Made by a program: the position numbers and the translations under genes
Origin: a virus
DNA length: 31,271 nucleotides
Reading direction: 5' to 3' (one strand)
Virus record (IMG/VR): IMGVR_UViG_3300021085_000129
Span: 1 to 31,271 of that record
The notes under the pieces: model-generated
What the model saw: the letters and a program-made list of their open reading frames with translations, nothing else
The model's database searches: none
What the model was told of the DNA's origin: nothing
Shown here: in pieces, positions 9,554-30,694 of the stretch
How the letters are laid out: each line of letters starts with the position of its first letter
Numbering within the stretch: the first letter of the stretch is position 1

Positions 9554-12500
9554 ATGCCAGAGATTAAGAATCAGTTTACCGGTGGTAAAATGAACAAAGA
9601 TGTAGACGAGCGTCTTGTTCCTAAAGGAGATTATAGACACGCTGTTAATATTCAAGTTACAACTTCAGAAGGGTCTGATGTTGGTACCGTTCAAAATATA
9701 CTAGGTAATAGTCTTGCCATAACACCAGGTTTGCCTATAAACGATGCGTTAAGCTTATTCAACAACCACATATGTGTAGGTTCTATATCTAATGAAGCTA
9801 AAAATGAGCTTTACTGGATGTTAGCTGAGTACACTTGGAAAGATCAAATAACACAATCAGGCAATGTTCTTTTACAGCAAATTGTTCATACAAACTCATC
9901 ACCACTACTAAACGTTATAGCAACTAACTTTCAGAATTATAATAGTTTTAATTGGATTGTTGAAAGCAAATCCGCTATTGTTAAGTATAAAAACAACAAC
10001 GCTGAGTTGGTTTTTGTAGACAAAGCGTCTGTTACTATAAATGCTTGGGATGCTAATATAGGTTCAACAGACGGTGGTCAGTTTGAGGTGTTAGCTAGCG
10101 ACGTAGCTCCTTCTAGCTCTTTTACACCCACTATATCAAGTGGGTTTTCTAGTTTTGGTACTGGATATGGTTTTAATAATTCTACGATATTTCAATTAGA
10201 AGTTGGTGATGTTACAAATATAACAGCTGGTATGGACGTTGTTGGCGTCGGGTTAAACCCTCACACTAACGAAATAATGAATTTTTGGCCAAACACCTCT
10301 GTGTTAAGTGTTGAGCAAGTTGGAACATGGACAGATGTTAATGGAGATCAAAGAATACAGGGTATAGTTCAACTAAATAACACTACTGGAGGTTTTGGTT
10401 GTATCGCGGCGGACAACACGTATACTTACGCTCCTAACTTAGTTAATCCACCAAATTGTCCTAGCGCTTGGATTCCCATTCAAATGATTGTTACACACTG
10501 GGTTTTTCAATCTAAAACATTACAGTTAGATAGAAAAAACTTAATAACTGGAATAAATATCATTGATGATCTTTTATTTTGGACTGATAACTATTCAGAA
10601 CCAAAATGTATAAATATTACAGACAGCATAAAAGGTACTGATCAAACTGGTAATTTTCATACAGATATATTTGTTGAGGAAAGAGACATATTAGTTCCAG
10701 CTAGGGAAAAACATGTTACTGTTATTAAAAATGCACCTAAAAACCCTCCTATAATAAATTCAAAGCAAGGTAGAGATGGTAACTCTTATGGTATAGCGTA
10801 TCAAGTACCTACTGCTAATGCTGGGGTTGGAGACACTTTGACTATAGATATAACTTCTCCCTTTACAACTGAATTAAACTATCAAATTGGAGATGTTTTG
10901 GCTTTTAAACTATTAAGCTCTTACTTGTCAACAAATATAACTTCATTTTTTCCAATATCAACAAACTCTAATTACACTTTGTCTGGTTCTATAGTCTCTA
11001 TAGGTAGTTCTTCAGCTAGCGGTATGACAAGTGTATCTATAATTGTACAACAATTTGTTGGTAATTCATTAGGTAGTGACTACGCTGTTGACTTGTTAGA
11101 TAATTCTAAAGTATTATACAAACTAAAATTCCCAAGATTCGCGACTAGATATAAATATAAAGACGGTCAGTATTCTTCTTTTTCACCTTTCTCTGATGTT
11201 GCTTTTGTTCCCAGCAACTATGAGTATAACGCTACAACAGGTTTTAATATTGGCATGGAAAACAGTATTACCTCTGTTAGCTTAAAAGATATTATAACTT
11301 TAGATATACCAGAAGACGTTATAGATATAGATATACTGTATAAAGAGTCAGATTCTCCTAATGTTTATCTTTTAGAAACAATAACAAACCTACCTCAAAA
11401 ACTTCCAGTTCCGGCTGATACTTCTATTTGGAATCCTAAAAAATTAGACGACAACTACGAATACATAATAACGTCAGAAAACATCAACGCTTTAATATCT
11501 TCTGAGCAAATACTAAGAAGCTATGATAATGTGCCTAGGGCTGCTTTAGGTCAAGATATAGTTGGGAGTAGGCTGGTTTATGGTAACTACTTACAAAATT
11601 ACAATATAGAAAAAGAAAATATATCAATAAGCACATCTATATCTCCTTATCCAAATAACGAAAGATTTAAAAGTATAAAATCTATAAGAGACTACGAGGT
11701 AGGTTTAGTTTTTTCTGACAAATATGGTAGAGAAACACCTGTTATAACTAGCGAGCAGAATAAGGTGACTCTATCTAAGGCTAACGCGGACAAAAATAAT
11801 AGATTTAAAGTTTCTTGGAAAACCACTGATGGGTATCAACTTCCTGATTGGGTTGAATCTTATAAGTTCTACGTGAAAGAAACGTCAACAGAGTACTATA
11901 ATTTGTCTATGGATAGGTTCTACGATGCTGAAGATAGTAATATATGGCTTTCTTTTCCGTCTTCAGAAAGAAACAAAGTAGATATTGACACTTATTTAAT
12001 ATTAAAAAAAGAACAAAACTCTAGCAATTTAGTTTTAGCTGATTATAGATATAAAATTCTTGATATTAAAAACGAAGCCCCTAATTTTATAAAGGTAGAT
12101 AAAAAAGATTTAGCAAAAATTGTAGAAGGTCCTGTTACAAGCGCTAATAATGGTGGTAGTGGACTTCCTGTTACAACAACGGGCTTGTTGTTTGTTGACA
12201 ATACTACTAGTGCTTACCCTGACAGCGTCTTAGTAAATGGCTTGCCTGGCACTAAAAAACTACATGTTAAAGGCGACATTACTCCAACTGGAGTTAATCG
12301 TATTGGCGGTAGTGTAGGTCGTTTAAGACCTAGTGATTTAATAAGTGATGAGTATGAAGTAGAGGTTAGGATAAATACTTTTAAATCAAACTTTGTACAA
12401 GGCAACTATGTTACTTCTTGGAGAAAAATAAACAAAATAACTCATTACGGCAAAAACGGAGTAACTCTTGATACTTTACCTACTACATCAGCACAGCAAC

Positions 12501-15500
12501 AGGATTTCACTATACATTTATCAGAAGCTTGGGAGAACGATTCAAGTTTCTTTTTCACAGATCAAGTTGGTACAGTTACAGCCGAAGGTACAAACGGCGC
12601 GCCAGTTTTAGAGTTTAGAAAACTAATACGTAGAGATAACTTAGCAGAGTTTGCTGGTAGGTTTTTTGTTAAAATACTAAAAGATATAAGTTTCTACGAA
12701 CAAGTGTTAAGCCAAATGGGCAGTCAAACTTTAGTTCCTAAACTTCAACAAGATCTTGGTTATGTAAAAGATTTTACACAAGAAGATTTTAGTGGTCAAG
12801 GTAATATTTCCTCTAACTTTTTTACAACAGTTTCTAGTCAAATATCTGCTTTGCCACACCCTTGGGCTAGCGCTAGATATCCAGGTGGTGTAAGTGGAGT
12901 ACCTATACCAACTGACGCTTATTACCATCCATCAGCTTGGTCTTACATACATGATAAGTTAAACGCTACAACGGCAAAAGGTTTTTTTATTGACGAAGCT
13001 TTTGCTACTGGTATATCTCCGTTTTATAACTTTAGAGAGGCTTTTCAAACTCGTTTTGTAGATGATAGTGAAACTAGAGAAAGAAATCAAGTTGCTCTTT
13101 TTGGAGGTTGGGATTCTGCATCTTCACCTCAACCAACTTTAGATTACTACAGTAACGTTGATACAAACCTAAACTCTTTATACGCTTATCACAACCAGAC
13201 ATATAGCGATCAACTAACTGATTACACTGGATGCCAAACGGTAAGTGGTGTAACTAACGGTATCCCATCTAATTTAACTAACCCTTGCCCCGATAGAATA
13301 GCTGCTGTTGTATGGGAACCATTGTTAAACAACACTTCTTTATCTCAAAACAAATACTATCACGAGGGCAACGGAGCAGGTGCTTCGCCCGCCAACGTTC
13401 TTGATATATCTATAATAGGAGGTATTGGAAATGAGTGGAAACCTAGCCAAGGTGGTTTAGGTTTTACTCCTCATGATCCAAACGGTTTTGGGTATTTAAC
13501 TTGGAACGACGCGCAGTTAGCATTAACATCCTTAGACGATGCGCAACGTGATGTTATGTTTGAACTTTGTACTATAGGTAACAAATTTAGATTTGATAAC
13601 GATCCTACCGAGGAAGTGTTTACTATTTTAGATTTTAGAATACAATCAAAGAAAAATTATTCTGAAGGTTTTTATGACGATACTTACCCTGGTGCAATTC
13701 AGGCTGATCCAAATTTTAGCTCAAACTACCCTCATGACGGCTCAACTCCAATATCCGATAGTGTTAATTACACTGCAAATGCAAATCACAGGCATACTAT
13801 TAGCGTACTGTTAGATAAAGATATAGGTACAAGTGGTTACACTCCTACAGATGGGAGTATTGGTAATGTTCCTGGTTATGCTGGTAACTGGAACACACCA
13901 ACAATAACTGGCGACTTTGCTAAAATAGTGTTTTTAGAAGCACAGACGGTTTTTGATGGTTTTGGTGTTGACTCTAGTTTGAACCCCTCTATATGGGAGA
14001 CCGAACCAAAACAAAACGACGGTCTTGACATTTACTATGAAGCTAGTAGGTCTTACCCTTTTTCCATAAGTAAAGACAATGCTTTATTAAAAATGCCTAT
14101 TGGTAGTTTGATAAGACCTGACGATCCTTCTGTGCTAATACAACCTGGCACTACAGTTGTTGATTGGCAAGAAAGACAAATTAGTAACTCTATAGTTTTA
14201 GTAACAAACAAACCTTTGACGTTTGCAAACGAAGATATTATACGTTTTACTTTAGATGATGGATCAGAATCTCAAGCTGAGTTTTGGCAATCAGCAGCTT
14301 CGGCTACTTTTCCTAATGGACCAACAAACCCCTTAAATACAACTGGTACCGCTAATTATTTTCAATATTATGTTAGGCCGTTTAAACTAGGGCTGCTTAA
14401 TGGATTGTCTTGGAGTAACTGTTTTTCCTTTAACAATGGCGTAGAATCTAATAGTATAAGAGATGACTTTAATTCTGTGTCTATAGATAATGGAGCTATA
14501 GCCTCTGCAACTATTCTAGAGCCTTATGAAGAAGAACGTAGAAAAAGCGGTTTAATATTTTCTGGTTTATACAACTCTAACTCTGGCGTTAACAATCTAA
14601 ATCAATTTATAGCTGCTGAAAAAATAACAAAAGACTTAAACCCTACTTATGGTAGTATTCAAAAATTACACGCTAGAGATTCTGATTTAATTGCTTTATG
14701 TGAAGATAAAGTGATTAAAATACTAGCAAATAAAGATGCTTTGTTTAATGCTGATGGAAACCCTCAATTAACCGCTAACGAAAGGGTTTTAGGACAGAGT
14801 ATTCCTTTTGTTGGAGAGTTTGGTATATCTACAAACCCAGAATCATTTGCTTCAGAATCCTATAGAGTTTACTTTACTGACAAAGTAAGAGGGAAGGTTA
14901 TTAGGTTATCTATGGATGGGTTAACACCTATATCAGAGCATGGTATGAAAGATTATTTTAAGGATAATCTAAAGTCTAACGATAAAATTATAGGTAGTTA
15001 TGATGATAAAAAAGACGAATACAATGTAACTCTACCTAACACTGGAACAACTGTTTCTTTTAGCGAATCAGTTAGAGGTTGGGTTAGTTTTAAGTCATTT
15101 GTTCCTGAAAATGCTATTAGCTGCGCTAACGATTACTACACAATAAAAAATGGTGTAATATGGAAGCACCACGTCGAAACAATTCCTGAAACTAGAAACA
15201 AGTTTTACGGCGCTCATACTGAAAACGACTACTCATCGCTAGAAGTTATTTTAAATGATGCGCCTAGCGTTGTTAAATCGTACAAAACAATAAACTACGA
15301 GGGTAGTCAGTCTAAAGTTGATCAATTTGTTTCTAACACAAACCCTAACACTGGCGTGACTTTAAGTGACAATGAGTACTACAATCTAACGCTTAAAAAA
15401 GGTTGGTATGTAAATAATATAATTACAGATAAAGAAAAAGGTAGTGTAAATGAATTTATAGAAAAAGAAGGTAAATGGTTTAATTATATAAAAGGTAAAA

Positions 15501-17764
15501 ACGTTCAGTTGTCAACGGGCAATCAAATACATATTAATAATGACGGCAGCTCTTCTTTTGATCAAGCTAGTTTTAGTATACAGGGCTTAGGAGTATATGA
15601 TGGACCTGTAGCTGTACCAGTTCCTGGTTGTACAGATAACACTTTTGCAAACTATAATCCAAACGCGACTGTAGATGATGGTAGTTGTTTTAACCCACCA
15701 CCACCACCTCCAAATCCAATATATGGATGTACTGATGCTTCTGCAACAAATTATAATTCGTTATCAAATGTAGATGATGGTTCTTGTTTTTATACTGGAA
15801 TTGCTGTTTATGGCTGTATGGATGCATCAGCTACTAATTATAACTTTGCTTCAAATGTTAGTGACAACTCTTGTCTGTGGATGGGGTGTACAGACAATAG
15901 CGCTCTAAACACAACAGACTTTACAGCTGCTTACAATTACGCTGCGGCCAACAATATACCTGTAAATATTGCTGATGATGGTTCATGTATTGCTGTAGCT
16001 TTAGGTTGTACAGATCCTACGGCGTTTAATTATGATAACACAGCAACTGTTGATGATGGTAATTGCATACCAGTTATAACAGGTTGTATGGATCCTACGG
16101 CATCTAACTACATACAACCAACAGGTACTAGCTCTGATATAAACACTAGTGATCCTAACGCTTGTGTTTTTGACGGATGTACAGATGATACACCTGGTAT
16201 TAATCCAGATATCAATGGAAATATACCACCTTCTGGACCAAACATAACAGGTTACTTAGCTACAAACTATGATCCTGCTGCAAATAATGACGATGGTTCT
16301 TGTGCTTACAGTGTTGGTTGTACTGATCCTACACAAGCAAACTACAACCCATCAGCTCAAATAAACGATCCTAGTAATTGTATTGCTTGCGATTGGGTAC
16401 AAGGTGGCGTTTATCCTTACAATGGTAATCCTGTTGCTATTACTAATATAAATGAATCAACGCCAAACACAAATGACGGTCAAATTGCCGTTGAAGTAAA
16501 TGTAAACTTTCCTAATCCAACTGCTCAAGGTCAAACTTACACTCCGTTTACAATAGAGTTGTTAGACTCTAGTGGCGCTGTGGCTGTTTATACTTTTACT
16601 CCAAACTCAGGTTTATATAACTTTGTAAATTCAAACTCTATACTTTTCTCTAATTTAGCTCCAGGTGTATACACAGTTCAGGTTTTAAACGGCCCTAACC
16701 AGTATGGTGTTAGCGGTATATGTGAGTATAATGAAAACATAACTGTTTTAGTTGGTTCTCCAATATTAATACAAGGTTGTATGGATCCAAACGCTTGTGA
16801 TTACAATCCTCAAGCTAATGATTCAACGCCGTGTAATTACGCTACGTGCGCTGGTTGTATGGACAATGCTTTTCCAGCTGATAATTATGGTTCTCAAACT
16901 GGTACCGGTGGAGTTGGCCAAATGGGAACTCCTTGTATCAGTTTAATAAACGGAAACATTAGCAATCTTTGTACGATACAGTGTGGTGATACTAGCAGTG
17001 CGACGCCTCAAGGTAATGGTTGTTGCGCTTACACTATACCTGGGTGTACGGACGGTAGTACAGATGCTAACGGAAACAATGTAATGTTTAATTATAATCC
17101 TGTAGCTACTGTGGATGATCTTTCATGTATACTTGCTTTTTATGGTTGTATAGATCCTACAGCATTAAACTATAATTCTTTAGCAAATGTAGATAATGGA
17201 ACATGTATACCAAACATCGTTGGTTGTATGGATTCTACTGCGCTGAATTATGACGCTACAGCTACTGTAGATTCAACTCCAACTAGCTGTTGTTATATCT
17301 CTGGTTGTACTGATCCAGCTTATCCAAACTATAACCCAAGTGCGTGTCAAGACGATGGTAGTTGCGCGCATGTTTACGGGTGTATGACAGCAACAGCTTG
17401 TAATTTTGACTGCTCAACAGCTTTGAACTCTGGCTCTACAACACCTTGTACTGACGGTGTTTCTATGGATGATAACAGTTGTGTGTTTGGTGGTTGTACA
17501 GATCCACTTTCTTGCTTTTTTGATCAAGCGTTAGCAAATACATTTCCTTGTACTGATGACGACCAATGCATATACCCAGGTGTACCTAACAATAACATAG
17601 GTTATAATGCCGTGGAAAACAATGCTGGCATACCAGGTTGCGCTTGTGAACAGCCGTCTCCTTGTGATCAAGTTACTGGCAACAATGCAACTACCTTTGC
17701 AACTTTAAATGATTGTTTAAATGCAGTTGCTCAAAACTCCGACTGTAATACGTCTACCCAATAA
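9554..17764 (+). CDS. Giant tail hub/receptor-contact protein with Cys-rich repeat C-terminus
   Basis: A 2736-residue virion protein. The N-terminus 'KNQFTGGKMNKDVDERLVPK' followed by 'RHAVNIQVTTSEGSDVGTVQ' resembles the opening of tail hub proteins in short-tailed phages (P22 gp10 / T7 gp12 type; crAss-like phages have similar starts). The body to about 2015 is beta-rich. It includes a Gly-Met beta module near G226-M227 and, at about 1690-1830, segments such as 'LIALCEDKVIKILANKDALF' and 'VYFTDKVRGKVIRLSMDG' that look like propeller blades. From G2025 to the end there are about 17 Cys-rich 'GCTD...DDGSC' units, interrupted at 2279-2407 by a SprB-like domain, with a six-Pro linker at 2048-2053. 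No signal peptide. The likely role is central tail hub with an extended cell-contacting C-terminus. Role of the N-terminus is fairly sure; receptor contact is inference. Confidence 0.78.
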   Translation: MPEIKNQFTGGKMNKDVDERLVPKGDYRHAVNIQVTTSEGSDVGTVQNILGNSLAITPGLPINDALSLFNNHICVGSISNEAKNELYWMLAEYTWKDQITQSGNVLLQQIVHTNSSPLLNVIATNFQNYNSFNWIVESKSAIVKYKNNNAELVFVDKASVTINAWDANIGSTDGGQFEVLASDVAPSSSFTPTISSGFSSFGTGYGFNNSTIFQLEVGDVTNITAGMDVVGVGLNPHTNEIMNFWPNTSVLSVEQVGTWTDVNGDQRIQGIVQLNNTTGGFGCIAADNTYTYAPNLVNPPNCPSAWIPIQMIVTHWVFQSKTLQLDRKNLITGINIIDDLLFWTDNYSEPKCINITDSIKGTDQTGNFHTDIFVEERDILVPAREKHVTVIKNAPKNPPIINSKQGRDGNSYGIAYQVPTANAGVGDTLTIDITSPFTTELNYQIGDVLAFKLLSSYLSTNITSFFPISTNSNYTLSGSIVSIGSSSASGMTSVSIIVQQFVGNSLGSDYAVDLLDNSKVLYKLKFPRFATRYKYKDGQYSSFSPFSDVAFVPSNYEYNATTGFNIGMENSITSVSLKDIITLDIPEDVIDIDILYKESDSPNVYLLETITNLPQKLPVPADTSIWNPKKLDDNYEYIITSENINALISSEQILRSYDNVPRAALGQDIVGSRLVYGNYLQNYNIEKENISISTSISPYPNNERFKSIKSIRDYEVGLVFSDKYGRETPVITSEQNKVTLSKANADKNNRFKVSWKTTDGYQLPDWVESYKFYVKETSTEYYNLSMDRFYDAEDSNIWLSFPSSERNKVDIDTYLILKKEQNSSNLVLADYRYKILDIKNEAPNFIKVDKKDLAKIVEGPVTSANNGGSGLPVTTTGLLFVDNTTSAYPDSVLVNGLPGTKKLHVKGDITPTGVNRIGGSVGRLRPSDLISDEYEVEVRINTFKSNFVQGNYVTSWRKINKITHYGKNGVTLDTLPTTSAQQQDFTIHLSEAWENDSSFFFTDQVGTVTAEGTNGAPVLEFRKLIRRDNLAEFAGRFFVKILKDISFYEQVLSQMGSQTLVPKLQQDLGYVKDFTQEDFSGQGNISSNFFTTVSSQISALPHPWASARYPGGVSGVPIPTDAYYHPSAWSYIHDKLNATTAKGFFIDEAFATGISPFYNFREAFQTRFVDDSETRERNQVALFGGWDSASSPQPTLDYYSNVDTNLNSLYAYHNQTYSDQLTDYTGCQTVSGVTNGIPSNLTNPCPDRIAAVVWEPLLNNTSLSQNKYYHEGNGAGASPANVLDISIIGGIGNEWKPSQGGLGFTPHDPNGFGYLTWNDAQLALTSLDDAQRDVMFELCTIGNKFRFDNDPTEEVFTILDFRIQSKKNYSEGFYDDTYPGAIQADPNFSSNYPHDGSTPISDSVNYTANANHRHTISVLLDKDIGTSGYTPTDGSIGNVPGYAGNWNTPTITGDFAKIVFLEAQTVFDGFGVDSSLNPSIWETEPKQNDGLDIYYEASRSYPFSISKDNALLKMPIGSLIRPDDPSVLIQPGTTVVDWQERQISNSIVLVTNKPLTFANEDIIRFTLDDGSESQAEFWQSAASATFPNGPTNPLNTTGTANYFQYYVRPFKLGLLNGLSWSNCFSFNNGVESNSIRDDFNSVSIDNGAIASATILEPYEEERRKSGLIFSGLYNSNSGVNNLNQFIAAEKITKDLNPTYGSIQKLHARDSDLIALCEDKVIKILANKDALFNADGNPQLTANERVLGQSIPFVGEFGISTNPESFASESYRVYFTDKVRGKVIRLSMDGLTPISEHGMKDYFKDNLKSNDKIIGSYDDKKDEYNVTLPNTGTTVSFSESVRGWVSFKSFVPENAISCANDYYTIKNGVIWKHHVETIPETRNKFYGAHTENDYSSLEVILNDAPSVVKSYKTINYEGSQSKVDQFVSNTNPNTGVTLSDNEYYNLTLKKGWYVNNIITDKEKGSVNEFIEKEGKWFNYIKGKNVQLSTGNQIHINNDGSSSFDQASFSIQGLGVYDGPVAVPVPGCTDNTFANYNPNATVDDGSCFNPPPPPPNPIYGCTDASATNYNSLSNVDDGSCFYTGIAVYGCMDASATNYNFASNVSDNSCLWMGCTDNSALNTTDFTAAYNYAAANNIPVNIADDGSCIAVALGCTDPTAFNYDNTATVDDGNCIPVITGCMDPTASNYIQPTGTSSDINTSDPNACVFDGCTDDTPGINPDINGNIPPSGPNITGYLATNYDPAANNDDGSCAYSVGCTDPTQANYNPSAQINDPSNCIACDWVQGGVYPYNGNPVAITNINESTPNTNDGQIAVEVNVNFPNPTAQGQTYTPFTIELLDSSGAVAVYTFTPNSGLYNFVNSNSILFSNLAPGVYTVQVLNGPNQYGVSGICEYNENITVLVGSPILIQGCMDPNACDYNPQANDSTPCNYATCAGCMDNAFPADNYGSQTGTGGVGQMGTPCISLINGNISNLCTIQCGDTSSATPQGNGCCAYTIPGCTDGSTDANGNNVMFNYNPVATVDDLSCILAFYGCIDPTALNYNSLANVDNGTCIPNIVGCMDSTALNYDATATVDSTPTSCCYISGCTDPAYPNYNPSACQDDGSCAHVYGCMTATACNFDCSTALNSGSTTPCTDGVSMDDNSCVFGGCTDPLSCFFDQALANTFPCTDDDQCIYPGVPNNNIGYNAVENNAGIPGCACEQPSPCDQVTGNNATTFATLNDCLNAVAQNSDCNTSTQ
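15626..17761 (+). repeat. About 17 Cys-rich DDGSC-type protein repeats
   Basis: Coding tandem repeat of irregular spacing inside the giant tail protein (residues 2025-2736). The consensus unit is Gly-Cys-Thr/Met-Asp-Pro-x-Ala-x-Asn-Tyr-Asn-x-x-Ala-x-x-Asp-Asp-Gly-Ser-Cys, about 20-25 residues plus a linker. Good units start at G2025, G2058 and G2087. Later units carry insertions or extra Cys, and the last (G2695) is degenerate. Each unit has two framing Cys, suggesting one disulfide per unit, and the Asp-Asp-Gly could bind calcium. Such repeats are common in secreted flavobacterial proteins. The DNA copies have diverged, so this is an old protein repeat and not a recent duplication. Confidence 0.9.
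16388..16774 (+). other. SprB-like Ig-type domain inserted among the Cys-rich repeats
   Basis: Residues about 2279-2407 break the Cys repeat series. The segment has 'NTNDGQIAVEVNV', then strands 'YTPFTIELLDSSGAVAVYTF', then 'LAPGVYTVQVLNG' and a closing 'GICEYNENITVLV'. The order 'nDGqI.v.v ... pf.i.l ... nLapGvYtV.V.n' matches the look of SprB repeat domains of Bacteroidota gliding adhesins. The domain assignment is by eye and the first part is longer than a usual SprB unit. Confidence 0.55.
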
Positions 17765-22549: not shown

Positions 22550-25500
22550 ATGAACGAAGAAATATTAAATAATATTTGGAACACGTTGTCTAACGATCCA
22601 AACGCTAGCCTTAAAGCGCAAGATTTTGAAGAATGGAAAAATAGTTTTATTAATAATAAAAATATACAGTCTAACGTGTATGATTATTTAAAACAAAACC
22701 ACAACGTAAAAGCTAACAACTTAGAAGAGTGGATAACTGGCGTGATGGGAAAGACAGAAGGTACTCAGGAAATAGATGCGCCTGTAGTACCGAACGTAAA
22801 TTTTTCCGGCAGTACGGAATTAGCATCGGAGCTTTCTGGTTTGGGTTTAGATGGACAAGAACTAAAAACATATGAAGACGGTTTAAATAAAGCTCTTGCA
22901 AAAACTGAAGTTGAAATGGAAGAGGTTTTAAAGTTAGCGGAAAAAGCTCCAACCTCACAGTATCTTGCTACAAAAGGTTTTCTTGGGCAGTTTGAAAAAA
23001 GGAATGTTTACGCATTTCAAGATTTTTTAAATGAAGATCAATCTAACATAGAAGAAGCTAAAGAAAAGTGGATACAGCAAGAAAGAGAAAAAATTCAAAG
23101 TAGAAACCTAGAAAAGGTTTTTGAAGAATTAAAAAGCGATGTTTTACCCTGGTGGACTGGGCCTGTTGGAATATATGGTTCGGCAAGAAAAATACTAGGC
23201 CCACAATCTTCTGTTGTAATGATAAATGAAGATGGTGAAAAAATCGAACAAACACCAGATGCGCTACCTTTTGGTTTAGGAAAGCAAGAGGAAAAATATG
23301 AAAAAGTTAGAAATATTTTGCATAAAGAGTATATTAGTCAGATGGAAACAATAAACTCAGAAGCAGAAGTTGTAGTCGATAACATAGAACTTTCTGTTGG
23401 TCAAATGAATTTGATTGATTATGAGTTGCAGGCATTAAAGTCTGAATATGAGCGAAACCCGCCAAGCTCTCAAGAAGCAGTTGATTATTTTAACGACTTA
23501 GTGGCTAAAAGAAAAACACTATTTAATACTTATAAGACAAACCTAGATAAACTAAACCAGTCAGACGTAAACTACGATAGCTTAGCAGATATTGCTGATA
23601 TGGTAAAAAGAACTTATAGTAAAGTGCAAGTTGCAGAAAATAGAGTTGAAAGCACTGTGTTAAGGCTTCAATCAGGTTTACTTAAAACTTTAAAAGAATC
23701 AACAGTTGGACTGGAAGAAAAATTTTTAAATGTTGATTTAAACTCAGAAGAAAATTTAGAGCTAGTTAGTGATTTTATGAGACCACTAGCTAAAGGCATG
23801 GGTAATTTAGGTGATGCTATGGATAAAAAATCTTTAGATTTATACAATAAATCTGAAAAAATAAATGAGTTTACCCAAAAAAGACAGGACACGGATATAA
23901 AATCAGTTGAAGATTTAGGAGAGTTTGTTTTAGATCTTTTTAGCGAACAAGCGGTAAACACTGCTTTAACACTAAGCATGAATGGTTTGGGTTTAGGTAT
24001 TATAGCCGCGGGCGCCACTGGTAATAAGTTTACAGCTATGGATAAAGATTTTGCTGAAGGTAAAATTTCTATGTCTCAATATTACGCGGCTGGAGTAGGT
24101 TACGGTCTTGCTGAGTATATTACTGAAAGAGTTTCTTTAGCAAACTTAAAACTAGGTATGAAAGGTTTTAGAAGAGCTTTAGATTTAGCTGGTGGTAAGT
24201 ACACTTTAAAAAGTTTTAGTTTCAAAAAATCATTAGCTATTTATGGTAAAGCTGTTGGATCTGAAGGTTTTGCTGAATTTTCTGCGTCAGTACTTCAAAA
24301 CGCTTTAGATAGATACGCATTAGAAGACAAGTCTGTTGGACTTATGGATGGTACTAAGGAAGCTTTTTGGTCAGGCGCGGCTATGGCTGGTTTAGGTTTT
24401 AATGCTCCAGCTTTAGCAGCTGCAGCTTATAGAGCAGCTACTCCATCAAAAGGTTGGGATAAAATAAATGAAAATACAAGAAAATTAATAGAACTTTCGG
24501 AGGTTTTTGAACAAATAGCTCTTGGGCCTAGAACACAAGAAACATTAGATCAAGCTAAAGCTGTTAGAGCTCAAATGGATGAGCTACTAAGAGATAACAT
24601 AAAACAAAAAGGTTTGGCAGAAAGAAGAGTAGATCAACTTTCAAATAACGAGAAAAGAACCTTAATAGATCTAGAAATAAAAAGAAATAAGTTTGCAAAC
24701 CAAATAGATAAGGTTAACGAGAATAAAAAGCTTTCAGAAAAACAAAGAAAAGATTTAATAAATAGATACGCAAAGCAAATATCAAAATTAGAAAGTAAAA
24801 AAGATTTAATATTAAATAGCGCTATGTACTCTAGTGACATGCGTAAAACTACAAAGTTAACTTTAGAAGACGCTATATTAAAAGGCTTAAATATAAAGAG
24901 TATACAAGCTGAAAACAATGATGACGCGCTAAAGCAAGCTATAAAGCATGTTGACAACTCTGATTTAACTGCAGAGCAAAAAAAAGAATTAAAAGATAAA
25001 TTAAAACAAACGTTTGACCAAGTAGACGTTTATGTTCATGGTTTTGCTATTGGTAAAAAACAAGGCTTGCCAATGCAGTTTCAAATGAAAAGCAATGCTA
25101 CTAACAACAGTACTGGCAACGCTTCAGTGCACTCTCACGAGCTAGGTCATAATTCTGTTCTTAGTAAAATTCTTGAAGGTAACGGAGATATGCTTGGACT
25201 TGTTGATGAATTTGAAGGTTATATTAGAAATAGGTTTAAAGGGCTTACTGAATTTGTAGAAAAAGAAGGTAGGTTTCAATTGACTCAGTATGCAACTACA
25301 AAAGAAGCTGTAACTAAAGAGTTAAAAAAAGAGCTTGGTAGAAAACCAACAGATCAAGAGGTCAAAGATAGAATATACTTAAACAAAGTAAGTATAGCCG
25401 AAGAAAAGCTAGCTGTTGCTATAGACTATATACGTCAATTTCATAATGAAAAAATAGACAAATCTTTCAAAGGTAAACTGTTGGATATGTGGAATAAGAC

Positions 25501-28500
25501 TAGAAACGCCGATGATATTAATGAAATACAAAACGGTGAAGATGTATATAACATGCTAACTAGTTTTGTTGCTGGTTTTGAAAAAGGCGAAATGAGCGGT
25601 TTAGCTGCAAGAGTAATATCTGGAAAAGTTAAAGCTCGTGCTCGTAACGCTAAAGAAGTAGAAGACAACAGAGTAAGAGAGCAAAAGTCAGCAACAAAAT
25701 CTATAAACGATTTTGGCAAAAAAATTGTAGATAAAGACGGTACTGTAACAGATTTAGAACAGAAAGGCCAGGGTAACTATTATTTTAAAGTTGAAGCTAA
25801 AAATATTTGGAAGCAAATACAAGAACAAGGTTTATTAGATGGTCTTATATTAGCTCAACCACACGAAGGCGTTAACAATAAAGCTTTTTTAGACACTACC
25901 TATGCAGAGCTTTTTTCTTGGTTTGAAAAATATCAACCTGAAAGAAAAAATTCTAGTGGTTTATTTGGTCATATAAACCCTCAAATACCTAATAGAGCAA
26001 AACAAGCTTATAACGTTATAACAAAAGGTGAGATAAAATACACTAAAGAAATAGGTGAAACAACTAAAGAAGGTGAGGTTAAAATTCAAGTTGCAGCTGA
26101 AACCACTAACGAAATGAAACAGCTTGAGGAAAAAGACATGTCTATTCAAGCTCAGGCACAAGAAAAAGAAGACAAACAAAAAGTAAAACAACAAAAAGAA
26201 TCTAAGTTTAGAAAAGCTCTTGGTATAGAAACAGGTGGTGTTTTATACATGAAAGTTTTAGATGCTGCTAGAAACAGCTTGTTAAGAGCGTATAGCACAA
26301 AAGACACGGTTAGACAAATACAAAGAAACCTAAGAGATCAAGCGAATAGGTATTTATTTAAGGATATTAAAAACTTTTTAGGTACGATTAAGTATAGATC
26401 TAATTTAAAGCAATACAGAGAAAACATAATGGAAAGCTTGTTTGTAGCTGACTTAGTGCAAATGGAAAGAGAGGTACCTGAAGCTGATAGAGTGTTCACT
26501 AAATTTGTTAAAAAACTTACCACAAAACAAGAGGTTATAGATGCTGTTGATCAAAATCTACTTCCACCATCAGCTATAAACGCGTACATTAAAGATAAGT
26601 CTGTTAACTTGTACGAAAAAGCAAGGCCTACTGAAGAGCAGTTTTTAGCATATTTTATGATACCAGCAATAAACCCTGTTACAGGTTTAAGGTCTGGTAA
26701 AAAAGGCACTAGAAAAGATACACTAGCAAAAAACATGGCTGGCGCGTTAGCTTATGATGCTACGATGCAAGTCGCTCAAGAACAAGATATAATTGAAAAA
26801 CGGCAAGAACTTGCTGATGCTAGAGGTGAAACTTTAGTTGAAGACAATTTAGATCAACTTGCTGTTTCTATAAGTAGAAATATAGATGTTAAATTTTCAA
26901 ACAAGTCTAATGAAAATAGAATTATATCAAACATGGCTGGCGAAATAATTAGTTTAACTAACGAGATGAGGACTAATGCTGGCTTGGTAACATATGAAGA
27001 TGGTCAGTATAAAATAAACTCTACGGTTTGGAAAAGATGGACTAAAAAAGCTAAATTTAAAAAATCTGATTTAGCCATTATAGCTGAATTCACCTACAAA
27101 GCATATAGATCGGAGCGGTATAGTAGGCTAACAGATTACGAAATAGCTACAAAAGTGCTAAAAACAGTAATAAAAGCTAGAAAAAATAAAAATGATATAA
27201 AAGTCCATCAAGCATTTGAGCAAATGATTATATCATCGTTGCAATATGCTGTTCAGAATATAAACTCTAGACTAAGGACGAACAAAAAAGTAAAAGAAGG
27301 AGTTGGTCAAGGCGATGCTTATATTAGTTACGGTAAAAATATACTTGGTATTGAGGTTAAAATGAATGAAGCAGATGGCGTTTCTCAAACTGTAAATGTA
27401 ATTCAAAACGAAAATGGAGAGTACTCTTTAAGCTACGCTAATGAAAACCCAACTACAAATGAAAATGGTGATACCTACGATAGCTTAATAGGTATTGAAA
27501 TACAAATAGCTTTAAAAGAATTAAATAAAAAGTTAAAAGAAAATAATTTAGGCGAAATTAAGAATGGCAACCAACTTTCTCCAAAACAAATTAAATATAT
27601 ACAAGATAATAATTTAAAAACAGAACTGTTTAAACATATAGATGTTAGCGAAATATATGCTGCTTGGCATTATGCTAATGGAAAATATACTAATAAACCA
27701 CAAGGATTTATTCAAGTAGGAAAAAGTTTGTACAGAATGATTACTGGCAATAGTAATTTAGACGGTTTAACAAGTTCTATTGTACAAGCGTTTAAAGGCG
27801 ATATACCTATTTTTAAAACGGAAAATGGAATAAAAATGCAGCTTCAAGCTAGATTAGACACGCAAAATGGAGTGTTAAAGTTTAGAGTTTCTCCTAGAAT
27901 AATAGATAACGAGTTAGTTAAATCTAATGTTAATCTTTTAAAACCTACAAATGCTGTAGAATTTGCCAAAGCTGTTGAAAAAGTAATGATACCTTTTAGC
28001 AGAGCGGAAAACTCCAACAACATACAAAAAGCTGTGCAATTTTCTAGATCCGCGAATAACCCAACAAAAGGTATTACTGTTTTAGATTTTGACGATACAC
28101 TTGCTACAACTAAATCGTTAGTTAAATTTACTAGACCAGATGGTACAACTGGTACTTTAAACGCAGAGCAATATGCTAGTACTTATGAAAACTTATTAGA
28201 TCAAGGTTACACTTTTGACTTTTCAGAGTTTAATAAAGTTGTAAAAGGTAAGTTAGCACCGTTGTTTCAAAAAGCTTTAAAGCTACAGGGTAAGTTTGGC
28301 TCTAAAAATATATTTGTATTAACAGCAAGACCACCTGCTGCTCAGAAAGCTATATTTGATTTCTTAAAAGCTAACGGATTAAATATACCTATTGATAATA
28401 TAACTGGTTTAGGCAACTCTACAGCTGAAGCTAAAGCTCTTTGGATGGCTGAAAAAGTTGGCGAGGGATATAATGACTTCTATTTTGCTGATGATGCTTT

Positions 28501-30694
28501 ACAAAACGTACAAGCTGTAGCCAATATGTTAGATCAACTTGATGTTAAATCTAAAGTTCAACAAGCTAGAGTAAAGTTTAGTAAAGGTATGAACGATACT
28601 TTTAACAATATATTAGAGGAAATTACAGGTATTGAAAGTCAAAAACGTTTTTCAGCTATTAAAGGTAGAAAACGTGGCGAGGACAAAGGTAAGTTTAGAG
28701 TGTTTATACCACCATCACATGAAGATTTTGTAGGTTTATTATATAACTTTATGGGTAAAGGTAGAAGAGGTGATGCTCATAGAGATTTTTTAGAGCAAGC
28801 TTTAGTTAGACCTTTAAATAGAGCTTATAGAGAACTAGATACTGCTAAGCAAGCTATAGCAAATGATTATAAAAAATTAAACGAGCAATTTCCCGATGTA
28901 AGTAAAAAGCTTATAAAAAACACTCCAGATGGTGATTTTACTTTTCAAGATGCTATTAGAGTTTATTTATGGAATAAACATGGTCATAAAATACCTGGTT
29001 TAACAGAAACTGATCAAGCTAAATTAACTAAGCTAGTAGAGTCAGATCCACAGCTTCAGGCGTATGCTGAAACTTTAAATGTTATATCTAAGCAAAAAGA
29101 TTATGTAGCCCCAGGTCAAGCATGGGAAACAGCTAACATAAGAATTGATTTAGTTGACGCTACAGGTAGAGTTGGTAGAGCTCAATATCTTTCTGAGTTT
29201 ATAGAAAATGCTGATGTATTGTTCTCTGAAGAAAACTTAAATAAAATTGAGGCTGCTTATGGTAAAGATTTTAGAGAGGCTTTAGAGGATATGTTACATA
29301 GAATTAAAACTGGTGTTAATAGACCTAAAGGTCAAAGTGGTAAACCAAATAAGTTTTTAAATTGGTTAAACGCTTCTGTTGCTGGTGTTATGTTTTTTAA
29401 CACTAGATCTGCTCTGTTACAGCAACTTTCTAATGTTAACTACTTAAACTTTGCTGATAACAATATACTAGCTGCAGGTAAAGCTTTTGCTAATCAAAAA
29501 CAATATTGGAAAGACTTTGCGTTTATACTTAACTCAAACATGTTAAAGCAAAGGCGTGGTGGTATTGGTACTGATGTAAACGGTGCTGAACTTGTAGAAG
29601 CTATTAAAAAAGCTAGGCCAGATAGTATGTTTGATCAAGTAGCTATTATAACAGGTAAACTACTTAGATTAGGTTTTTTACCTACGCAAATGGGTGATAG
29701 TATTGCAATTGCTACTGGTGGTGCGGCATTTTACAGAAATAGAGTAAACACATACTTAAAACAAGGTTTGAGTCAAAAAGAAGCTGAGGCTAAAGCTTTT
29801 ACTGATTTTCAAGATATAACTCAGTCTACACAACAGTCAGCTAGACCTGATATGACATCACAACAACAGGCTAGTTGGATAGGTAAGTTGGTATTAAACT
29901 TTTTAAATACACCATCTCAATATAATAGAATAATTAAAAAAGCAGGTAGTGATCTTAAAAACAGAAGAATAACAAAACCTAACACTAGTCAAACGCAAAG
30001 TGATATGTCTAACTTGTCTAGAATATTATATTACGGCGCTGCTCAAAATTTAATATTCTACGGTTTACAAACAGCATTGTTTGCGGTTATGTTTGGTGAT
30101 GATGATGATGATGAGAGCGAGGCGTTTTTAAAGAAAAAAGAAAGAGTTATAAATGGCTCTATAGATACTATATTAAGAGGTTCTGGTATATACGGCGTTG
30201 CTTTGTCTACTATTAAAAACATGATGATTAAGTTTGCGGAGCAAAGAGAGAAAGGTTATAACAAAGACGAAAGCGCTGTCATAATGGAAGCTTTAAACTT
30301 TTCACCTGTACTAGGTATTAGAGCTAGAAAAATAGTTAATGCTGAAAAAACGCTTAATTATAATACTAAGGTTATTGATGAAATGACAACTTTTGATATT
30401 GACAATCCACAATGGTCAGCTGTAACTAATTATGTTGAAGGTACAACTACTTTACCTGTAAATAGATTATATCAAAAAACAATAAATGTAAGAAATGCTT
30501 TAGATAATCAGTATACAGCATTTCAAAGAGCAATGTTCTTTAGTGGTTATACAACTTGGAGTTTAGATCTTGGTGATACTGAAAAGATGAAAAAAATAAA
30601 ACAAGATATTAAAGCTAAAGCTAAAAGAAAAAAGAAAAGTAAAGGTAGAAGTCAATTGAGATCAAAGCCAAAAGCAAGATCGAGAAATAGGTAA
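22550..30694 (+). CDS. Giant polyvalent internal virion protein (peptidase-, nuclease- and phosphatase-like modules)
   Basis: A 2714-residue multidomain protein of the 'polyvalent protein' style described for phages and conjugative elements, likely packaged and injected with the genome. Order: two short helical motifs at 1-70 ('DFEEWKNSF', 'NLEEWITGV'); coiled coils; a Gly-rich hydrophobic segment at 470-490; a coiled coil at about 640-790; a zincin-like site at 863-867 (HELGH); a region near 1160 with 'SGLFGHINPQIPNRAKQAYN', a motif type I recall from large polyvalent proteins; a PD-(D/E)xK-like signature at 1557-1604; a HAD phosphatase at about 1838-2000; helical segments; membrane-like stretches at 2274-2284 and 2489-2516; an Asp run; and a strongly basic tail (about 2680-2714). 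'FS[RKNA]' motifs recur at module edges. Which modules are active is inference. No RNA polymerase or transglycosylase motif was found. Confidence 0.8.
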   Translation: MNEEILNNIWNTLSNDPNASLKAQDFEEWKNSFINNKNIQSNVYDYLKQNHNVKANNLEEWITGVMGKTEGTQEIDAPVVPNVNFSGSTELASELSGLGLDGQELKTYEDGLNKALAKTEVEMEEVLKLAEKAPTSQYLATKGFLGQFEKRNVYAFQDFLNEDQSNIEEAKEKWIQQEREKIQSRNLEKVFEELKSDVLPWWTGPVGIYGSARKILGPQSSVVMINEDGEKIEQTPDALPFGLGKQEEKYEKVRNILHKEYISQMETINSEAEVVVDNIELSVGQMNLIDYELQALKSEYERNPPSSQEAVDYFNDLVAKRKTLFNTYKTNLDKLNQSDVNYDSLADIADMVKRTYSKVQVAENRVESTVLRLQSGLLKTLKESTVGLEEKFLNVDLNSEENLELVSDFMRPLAKGMGNLGDAMDKKSLDLYNKSEKINEFTQKRQDTDIKSVEDLGEFVLDLFSEQAVNTALTLSMNGLGLGIIAAGATGNKFTAMDKDFAEGKISMSQYYAAGVGYGLAEYITERVSLANLKLGMKGFRRALDLAGGKYTLKSFSFKKSLAIYGKAVGSEGFAEFSASVLQNALDRYALEDKSVGLMDGTKEAFWSGAAMAGLGFNAPALAAAAYRAATPSKGWDKINENTRKLIELSEVFEQIALGPRTQETLDQAKAVRAQMDELLRDNIKQKGLAERRVDQLSNNEKRTLIDLEIKRNKFANQIDKVNENKKLSEKQRKDLINRYAKQISKLESKKDLILNSAMYSSDMRKTTKLTLEDAILKGLNIKSIQAENNDDALKQAIKHVDNSDLTAEQKKELKDKLKQTFDQVDVYVHGFAIGKKQGLPMQFQMKSNATNNSTGNASVHSHELGHNSVLSKILEGNGDMLGLVDEFEGYIRNRFKGLTEFVEKEGRFQLTQYATTKEAVTKELKKELGRKPTDQEVKDRIYLNKVSIAEEKLAVAIDYIRQFHNEKIDKSFKGKLLDMWNKTRNADDINEIQNGEDVYNMLTSFVAGFEKGEMSGLAARVISGKVKARARNAKEVEDNRVREQKSATKSINDFGKKIVDKDGTVTDLEQKGQGNYYFKVEAKNIWKQIQEQGLLDGLILAQPHEGVNNKAFLDTTYAELFSWFEKYQPERKNSSGLFGHINPQIPNRAKQAYNVITKGEIKYTKEIGETTKEGEVKIQVAAETTNEMKQLEEKDMSIQAQAQEKEDKQKVKQQKESKFRKALGIETGGVLYMKVLDAARNSLLRAYSTKDTVRQIQRNLRDQANRYLFKDIKNFLGTIKYRSNLKQYRENIMESLFVADLVQMEREVPEADRVFTKFVKKLTTKQEVIDAVDQNLLPPSAINAYIKDKSVNLYEKARPTEEQFLAYFMIPAINPVTGLRSGKKGTRKDTLAKNMAGALAYDATMQVAQEQDIIEKRQELADARGETLVEDNLDQLAVSISRNIDVKFSNKSNENRIISNMAGEIISLTNEMRTNAGLVTYEDGQYKINSTVWKRWTKKAKFKKSDLAIIAEFTYKAYRSERYSRLTDYEIATKVLKTVIKARKNKNDIKVHQAFEQMIISSLQYAVQNINSRLRTNKKVKEGVGQGDAYISYGKNILGIEVKMNEADGVSQTVNVIQNENGEYSLSYANENPTTNENGDTYDSLIGIEIQIALKELNKKLKENNLGEIKNGNQLSPKQIKYIQDNNLKTELFKHIDVSEIYAAWHYANGKYTNKPQGFIQVGKSLYRMITGNSNLDGLTSSIVQAFKGDIPIFKTENGIKMQLQARLDTQNGVLKFRVSPRIIDNELVKSNVNLLKPTNAVEFAKAVEKVMIPFSRAENSNNIQKAVQFSRSANNPTKGITVLDFDDTLATTKSLVKFTRPDGTTGTLNAEQYASTYENLLDQGYTFDFSEFNKVVKGKLAPLFQKALKLQGKFGSKNIFVLTARPPAAQKAIFDFLKANGLNIPIDNITGLGNSTAEAKALWMAEKVGEGYNDFYFADDALQNVQAVANMLDQLDVKSKVQQARVKFSKGMNDTFNNILEEITGIESQKRFSAIKGRKRGEDKGKFRVFIPPSHEDFVGLLYNFMGKGRRGDAHRDFLEQALVRPLNRAYRELDTAKQAIANDYKKLNEQFPDVSKKLIKNTPDGDFTFQDAIRVYLWNKHGHKIPGLTETDQAKLTKLVESDPQLQAYAETLNVISKQKDYVAPGQAWETANIRIDLVDATGRVGRAQYLSEFIENADVLFSEENLNKIEAAYGKDFREALEDMLHRIKTGVNRPKGQSGKPNKFLNWLNASVAGVMFFNTRSALLQQLSNVNYLNFADNNILAAGKAFANQKQYWKDFAFILNSNMLKQRRGGIGTDVNGAELVEAIKKARPDSMFDQVAIITGKLLRLGFLPTQMGDSIAIATGGAAFYRNRVNTYLKQGLSQKEAEAKAFTDFQDITQSTQQSARPDMTSQQQASWIGKLVLNFLNTPSQYNRIIKKAGSDLKNRRITKPNTSQTQSDMSNLSRILYYGAAQNLIFYGLQTALFAVMFGDDDDDESEAFLKKKERVINGSIDTILRGSGIYGVALSTIKNMMIKFAEQREKGYNKDESAVIMEALNFSPVLGIRARKIVNAEKTLNYNTKVIDEMTTFDIDNPQWSAVTNYVEGTTTLPVNRLYQKTINVRNALDNQYTAFQRAMFFSGYTTWSLDLGDTEKMKKIKQDIKAKAKRKKKSKGRSQLRSKPKARSRNR
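25007..25549 (+). other. Zincin-like metallopeptidase domain in the giant protein
   Basis: Residues about 820-1000. The zinc-site motif is 'SVHSHELGHNSVL' with H863, E864 and H867. E951/E952 in 'VSIAEEKLAVAIDYI', about 85 residues later, is a good candidate for the third ligand, as in gluzincin-type sites. A segment about 60 residues further on, 'INEIQNGEDVYNMLTSF', is often found beside such zincins in polyvalent proteins in my recollection. Activity is not proven; a cut of the giant protein itself or of a host protein would fit. Confidence 0.68.
27182..27409 (+). other. PD-(D/E)xK nuclease-like signature in the giant protein
   Basis: Residues about 1545-1620. 'GQGDAYISYGKNILGIEVKM' holds D1589, then E1602-V-K1604 after 12 intervening residues, the classic D-(x10-15)-ExK spacing on a beta hairpin. 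Upstream, 'HQAFEQMIISSL' gives E1557 in a helix, where many members of this superfamily have a conserved Glu. The core strand-turn-strand is clear, but the rest of the fold cannot be confirmed by eye. Role inferred: DNA cleavage. Confidence 0.5.
28061..28549 (+). other. HAD-superfamily phosphatase domain in the giant protein
   Basis: Residues about 1838-2000 hold all four HAD motifs. Motif I is 'VLDFDDTLA' (nucleophile D1846, D1848). Motif II is 'VLTARP' (T1925). Motif III is likely K1962 in 'AEAKALWM'. Motif IV is 'FYFADDALQNV' (D1981, D1982). The set looks intact, so activity is plausible. The 'TARP' form recalls polynucleotide 3'-phosphatase and acid phosphatase branches, but the substrate cannot be read from sequence. 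Confidence 0.85.

Follow-up and report, generated by a model that had tools for sequence, protein, structure and literature searches.

A recurring Phe-Ser motif at the joints of exchangeable modules in a giant phage protein, a possible proteolytic cut site

The window (the whole 31,271-base stretch of viral DNA analysed here) carries virion genes in a podovirus-like order and a giant gene, P0001. A short Phe-Ser motif recurs in the product of this gene, which raises the question of whether the motif marks the edges of its modules and whether the chain is cut there. Two features set the frame:

22550–30694, plus strand: giant gene P0001, an open reading frame of 2714 aa
28655–30691, plus strand: C-terminal module, the best conserved part, distantly common to Pfam-defined polyvalent proteins

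Scans of P0001 against Pfam and PHROG gave no domain at E ≤ 0.01, and no Pfam LPD (polyvalent-associated) domain was matched in P0001 or in any of 16 relatives scanned, five of which matched DUF5763. By tblastn, P0001 matched gp101 of Cellulophaga phage phi38:1 at 28% over aa 505–756, with the same gene order, and its C-terminal module matched Pfam-defined polyvalent proteins by BLAST with a best E of 1e-10. The same chain holds several distinct enzymatic domains, namely an HExxH module, an HhaI-like nuclease and a Pnkp-like HAD domain. Judged from its sequence, P0001 is best explained as a virion-borne polyvalent protein of a new, polyvalent-like kind; a remote polyvalent protein, JC1 gp69, has been detected in virions by mass spectrometry (PMC9144972). 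The window encodes a second giant protein (9554–17764, 2736 aa), which has many Cys-containing repeats, GCTDPxAxNYNxxAxVDDGSC, near its C-terminus, in the C-terminal third.

The preliminary description had listed five motif copies, at F1449, F1816, F1831, F2010 and F2034, and all five lie in the reading frame exactly where it placed them. It had also assigned them one shared core, which holds for the first four, all of the form [VI]-x-F-S-[RKN], and fails for F2034 (QKRFSA). The copies and the two modules beside which they fall are as follows:

26888–26902, plus strand: joint motif 1, VKFSN (F1449), before the nuclease module, in a segment with pLDDT below 50
27200–27985, plus strand: PD-(D/E)XK nuclease-like module, HhaI endonuclease-like, aa 1551–1812
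27989–28003, plus strand: joint motif 2, IPFSR (F1816), 4 aa past the nuclease by its structural limit
28034–28048, plus strand: joint motif 3, VQFSR (F1831), 7 aa ahead of the HAD module by its structural limit
28061–28573, plus strand: HAD phosphatase module, aa 1838–2008
28571–28585, plus strand: joint motif 4, VKFSK (F2010), 2 aa past the HAD module, with pLDDT below 50 at aa 2008–2012
28646–28657, plus strand: RFSA at F2034, an element of the C-terminal module conserved across relatives, not a joint copy

In the alignment of homologues, F2034 sits in the C-terminal module within a conserved stretch of its own, [EK]KxFSxxKAxxxG, so that its grouping with the other copies did not hold, and it belongs to a different class. 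The loose form FS[RKNA] occurs six times in P0001, the sixth being FSAS at F577, which the first list lacked. At least six such matches were reached in 51 of 3000 shuffles of P0001, a mildly unusual count that is weak and post hoc within one protein and leaves some room for chance or ordinary composition when this chain is taken alone.

The module limits come from an AlphaFold2 model of aa 1400–2110 (mean pLDDT 74.7). Foldseek gave no significant hit for this model or for a model of the zincin of locus L003, and the nuclease and HAD modules were named afterwards by structural realignment with VIA-align. The nuclease (model residues 152–413) reached Z 9.0 to 6uke, and the HAD module (model residues 439–609) Z 10.9 to the T4 Pnkp 3ʹ phosphatase, 5uj0. 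As the nuclease ends at aa 1812 and the HAD module runs from 1838 to 2008, F1816, F1831 and F2010 lie only 4, 7 and 2 aa from a domain limit, and the claim that the motif flanks the HAD domain on both sides is borne out. The further claim was that it precedes the nuclease-like region; the copies lie around the nuclease, F1449 before it and F1816 after it. In the model, F1449 and F2010 are in segments below pLDDT 50, and F1816 and F1831 lie towards the tail of a long helix, where it is weaker. F2034 also falls within a short segment below pLDDT 50. With T4 Pnkp as the best match of the HAD module, and with a polynucleotide-kinase domain (phrog_415/505) observed in some relatives, the analysis suggests nucleic-acid end repair as one function of the cargo.

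A scan of viral contigs gave 79 homologous loci, of which 64 full-length relatives were used for regional counts of [KMQ]FS[KR] against the expectation from local composition. Whole-protein counts of FS[KR] are misleading, as they mix joint copies with conserved C-terminal positions, and for this reason sites were counted by region and by unrelated flanks. The regions were the part before the zincin, the part from 100 aa past HExxH up to the HAD domain, the 25 aa past the HAD domain and the C-terminal module. In both the part before the zincin (4 copies, 2.9 expected) and the C-terminal module (1 copy, 3.5 expected) the motif was at chance level. Between the zincin and the HAD domain there were 52 copies against 4.0 expected, a 13-fold excess, and the 25 aa after the HAD domain, where joint motif 4 lies in the window protein, were the most enriched place, with 24 against 0.5, about 45-fold. 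The control motifs [KMQ]LS, [KMQ]FT and [KMQ]SF were flat in the same regions, and in other proteins of the same phages [KMQ]FS[KR] was seen 3 times with 3.1 expected. When sites were grouped by flank similarity, 18 unrelated contexts remained between the zincin and the HAD domain against 4.0 expected sites, while comparison motifs gave mostly about 1.0–1.2-fold and none, sub-patterns of the motif aside, above 2.1. Of 63 relatives, 53 had one or more [KMQ]FS in the cassette and about 10 had none; at a place comparable to joint motif 1, many relatives have xVKFS, xIKFS or xVMFS. The regional enrichment refutes chance or ordinary composition, which, with the flat controls and the independent set described below, we consider extremely improbable.

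We also considered whether the recurrence reflects a repeat at the DNA level. The Ser codons of the five window copies are TCA, AGC, TCT, AGT and TCA, and at 90 sites Ser was encoded by AGY in 57% and by TCN in 43%, with 36 distinct 12-mers. Such mixed codons indicate that the peptide rather than the DNA is conserved, and a DNA-level repeat was rejected.

The joints also often coincide with breaks in homology. Most relatives align only from about aa 1820, that is, from the F1831 copy onwards, and the nuclease module was found in just 9 of 75; together these indicate that the module before F1831 is exchanged. Upstream of the HAD domain, a homology breakpoint was no more than 10 aa away from 42% of FS[KR] sites; the share was 12% for random positions, 9% for other FS sites and 7–19% for comparison motifs. 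The window protein and that of locus L002 are 76% identical in their best segment and differ in their zincin modules, and they turn near-identical exactly at the joint where L002 has KPKFSKTQTKTINDFG. The expectation that homologues would keep the motif at domain edges is thus supported, as is the description of it as a repeated linker sequence, with low-confidence linker segments in the models. At the level of sequence, these comparisons establish the motif as a selected linear peptide feature at the joints of an exchangeable cassette.

What the feature does is a separate matter. The link to breakpoints would fit a passive joint, a flexible linker or helix cap preferred at recombining seams and neither cut nor bound, as would the location of F1816 and F1831 in a long-helix tail and the interchange of FSR with IAR among relatives in the pre-HAD alignment. 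A passive linker, however, does not need a fixed Phe-Ser, DNA homology gives no explanation given the mixed Ser codons, and the motif is missing from the N- and C-terminal parts; we therefore judge this reading rather improbable.

The reading that we prefer is proteolysis. On this reading, exchangeable enzyme modules, here the HhaI-like nuclease and the Pnkp-like HAD, follow one another in the cassette that runs from the zincin to the C-terminal module, and every joint bears [VI]-[KRMQ]-F-S-[KRQ] within a linker for which poor folding is predicted. The motif may be where the chain is cleaved so that the modules come apart, either inside the capsid or once the host cell has been entered. The protease would most likely be the zincin of the same chain, or otherwise another one from phage or host. 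The features concerned are the following:

24857–25579, plus strand: zincin-like metallopeptidase module, aa ~770–1010, with HELGH and a downstream EE pattern
25136–25150, plus strand: HELGH active-site motif, aa 863–867
25667–25705, plus strand: post-zincin joint, aa ~1040–1052, with KKPKFSKTQTKTINDFG in L002 and VREQKSATKSINDFG in the window, and the homology breakpoint of the two

At this post-zincin joint the window protein itself is without the motif. The H, E, H and E165 of the zincin were invariant in 33 relatives, and the window residues H-E-H-E are intact (HELGH and AEEKLAVA). Structural assignment stayed weak for this module: the best matches of the L003 zincin model were mostly metallopeptidases, with a Z of only 4.3. 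The sole internal segment of that model below pLDDT 50 (residues 248–259) is centred on its FSK. From aa 2588 to its end, the L003 protein carries a C-terminal tail, CAAFSKSGNRCKKEVESGGSYCTIH, that resembles a small zinc-binding unit.

In many zincins the preferred residue directly following the cut is large and hydrophobic. The key position of the motif, held by F and sometimes by M or Y, fits this preference, and a zincin with thermolysin-like preference would cut directly before the Phe.

Polyvalent proteins of other phages and prophages provided an independent set of 67, several of them with Pfam InPase, ART-PolyVal, ddrB-ParB, LPD23 or LPD38 domains. In this set, [VIL][RKMQ]FS[RKQ] occurred 19 times against 2.5 expected, in 13 unrelated contexts, figures to be read with the fact that the motif letters were widened after part of these data had been seen. 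Of 22 contexts of [RKMQ]FS[RKQ], 54% were at homology breakpoints, compared to 15% of random positions and 3–25% for controls. Among individual cases, L141 has HFSL or RFSL four times (0.3 FSL expected), Vibrio phage 1.205 has NDVMFSRE 125 aa downstream of HExxxH, and L226 has PDIRFSRS 9 aa past its ART domain. In Vibrio phage 1.205.O the protein is NVP1205O_20, a chain of 3130 aa with joints at F2002 and F2217. One group has the zincin HEVLAHYGL bracketed by the motif: most of its members carry I[RL]FSKQAMAQG at −92, and many carry GGKKFSQE at +125. No enrichment was seen for the Tyr form [VIL][RKMQ]YS, and of the proteins found only through LPD38 (9 loci), most had no FS[RK]. The motif was absent from all 7 polyvalent proteins that have no HExx(x)H, with only 1.1 expected, a sample too small for significance. 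Little came from two scans for proteins related to other polyvalent proteins.

The co-occurrence of motif and zincin, the bracketing of a zincin in another family and the argument of Iyer et al. 2017 that zincins process polyvalent proteins (PMC5512222) speak for cutting by the zincin. Against it, the protein of L038 (aa ~1008) reads EELFH where HExxH is expected and still has three good copies (AGAKFSK, LNVKFSK and YVKFSK), and P1 DdrB, the one cited example reported to be processed, has no FS[KR]. In L064 (aa ~938), EELYH replaces HExxH and no strong motif is present. In both loci the first zinc-ligand His is changed to Glu.

The persistence of copies in L038 despite its altered zincin would also suit a docking role, in which each joint would attach to a protein of the capsid, scaffold or portal or to an internal protein, and the module is held or threaded without a cut. 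Such a role would use a motif of this sort: short, aromatic plus basic, present in several copies per chain, set in linkers that fold poorly and limited to the cargo part. The motif is found, however, in unrelated phage groups with the zincin as its recurring companion, and it brackets the zincin domain itself, so we think docking unlikely.

That the motif is a proteolytic cut site, for whichever protease, we rate as evenly balanced. That the zincin is the general cutter across lineages is a tentative proposal on our part. Similarly tentative is the wider idea of a single cleavage code, [VI][KRMQ]FS[KRQ], common to several tailed-phage lineages, at which giant cargo proteins that carry a zincin would be cut into separate anti-host enzymes.

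If the motif is a cut site, uncharacterised giant proteins of phages could be split in silico into working modules, where and whether polyvalent proteins are processed would become a direct experiment, and a code would be suggested by which one virion protein packs several enzymes and releases them. If the code is indeed shared, it would amount to a common polyprotein grammar that also permits module exchange at the same joints. Even if uncut, the motif can serve to mark where modules begin and end.

A literature search for the joint motif found no description, and as far as the searched literature shows it is undescribed. The nearest named relative of P0001, gp101 of phi38:1 (Pervagoviridae, annotated 'structural protein'), is syntenic and homologous over the stretch given above; it differs in being 1691 aa long, with no HExxH found and a single, unrelated FSK. 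Phage prohead protease sites are likewise short sites in precursors of virion proteins; they differ in residues, and no such protease was identified here. The P1 capsid protein is cut between E120 and S121 (PMC9024508). P1 DarA, DarB and DdrB were considered as expected carriers of the motif and rejected, as it is in none of them. DdrB and DarB, which differ from the window protein in having no FS[KR], are virion-carried polyvalent proteins, and DdrB has HELGH and is reported as processed, a size reduction being proposed or reported in PMC5512222. The polyvalent proteins of Iyer 2017 differ from the window family, which has no Pfam LPD domain match, and the sections consulted of PMC5512222 name no joint motif or cut sites. 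They likewise combine in one chain many exchangeable enzyme modules and a zincin-like HExxH peptidase, and their location is the virion, as would be that of the window protein.
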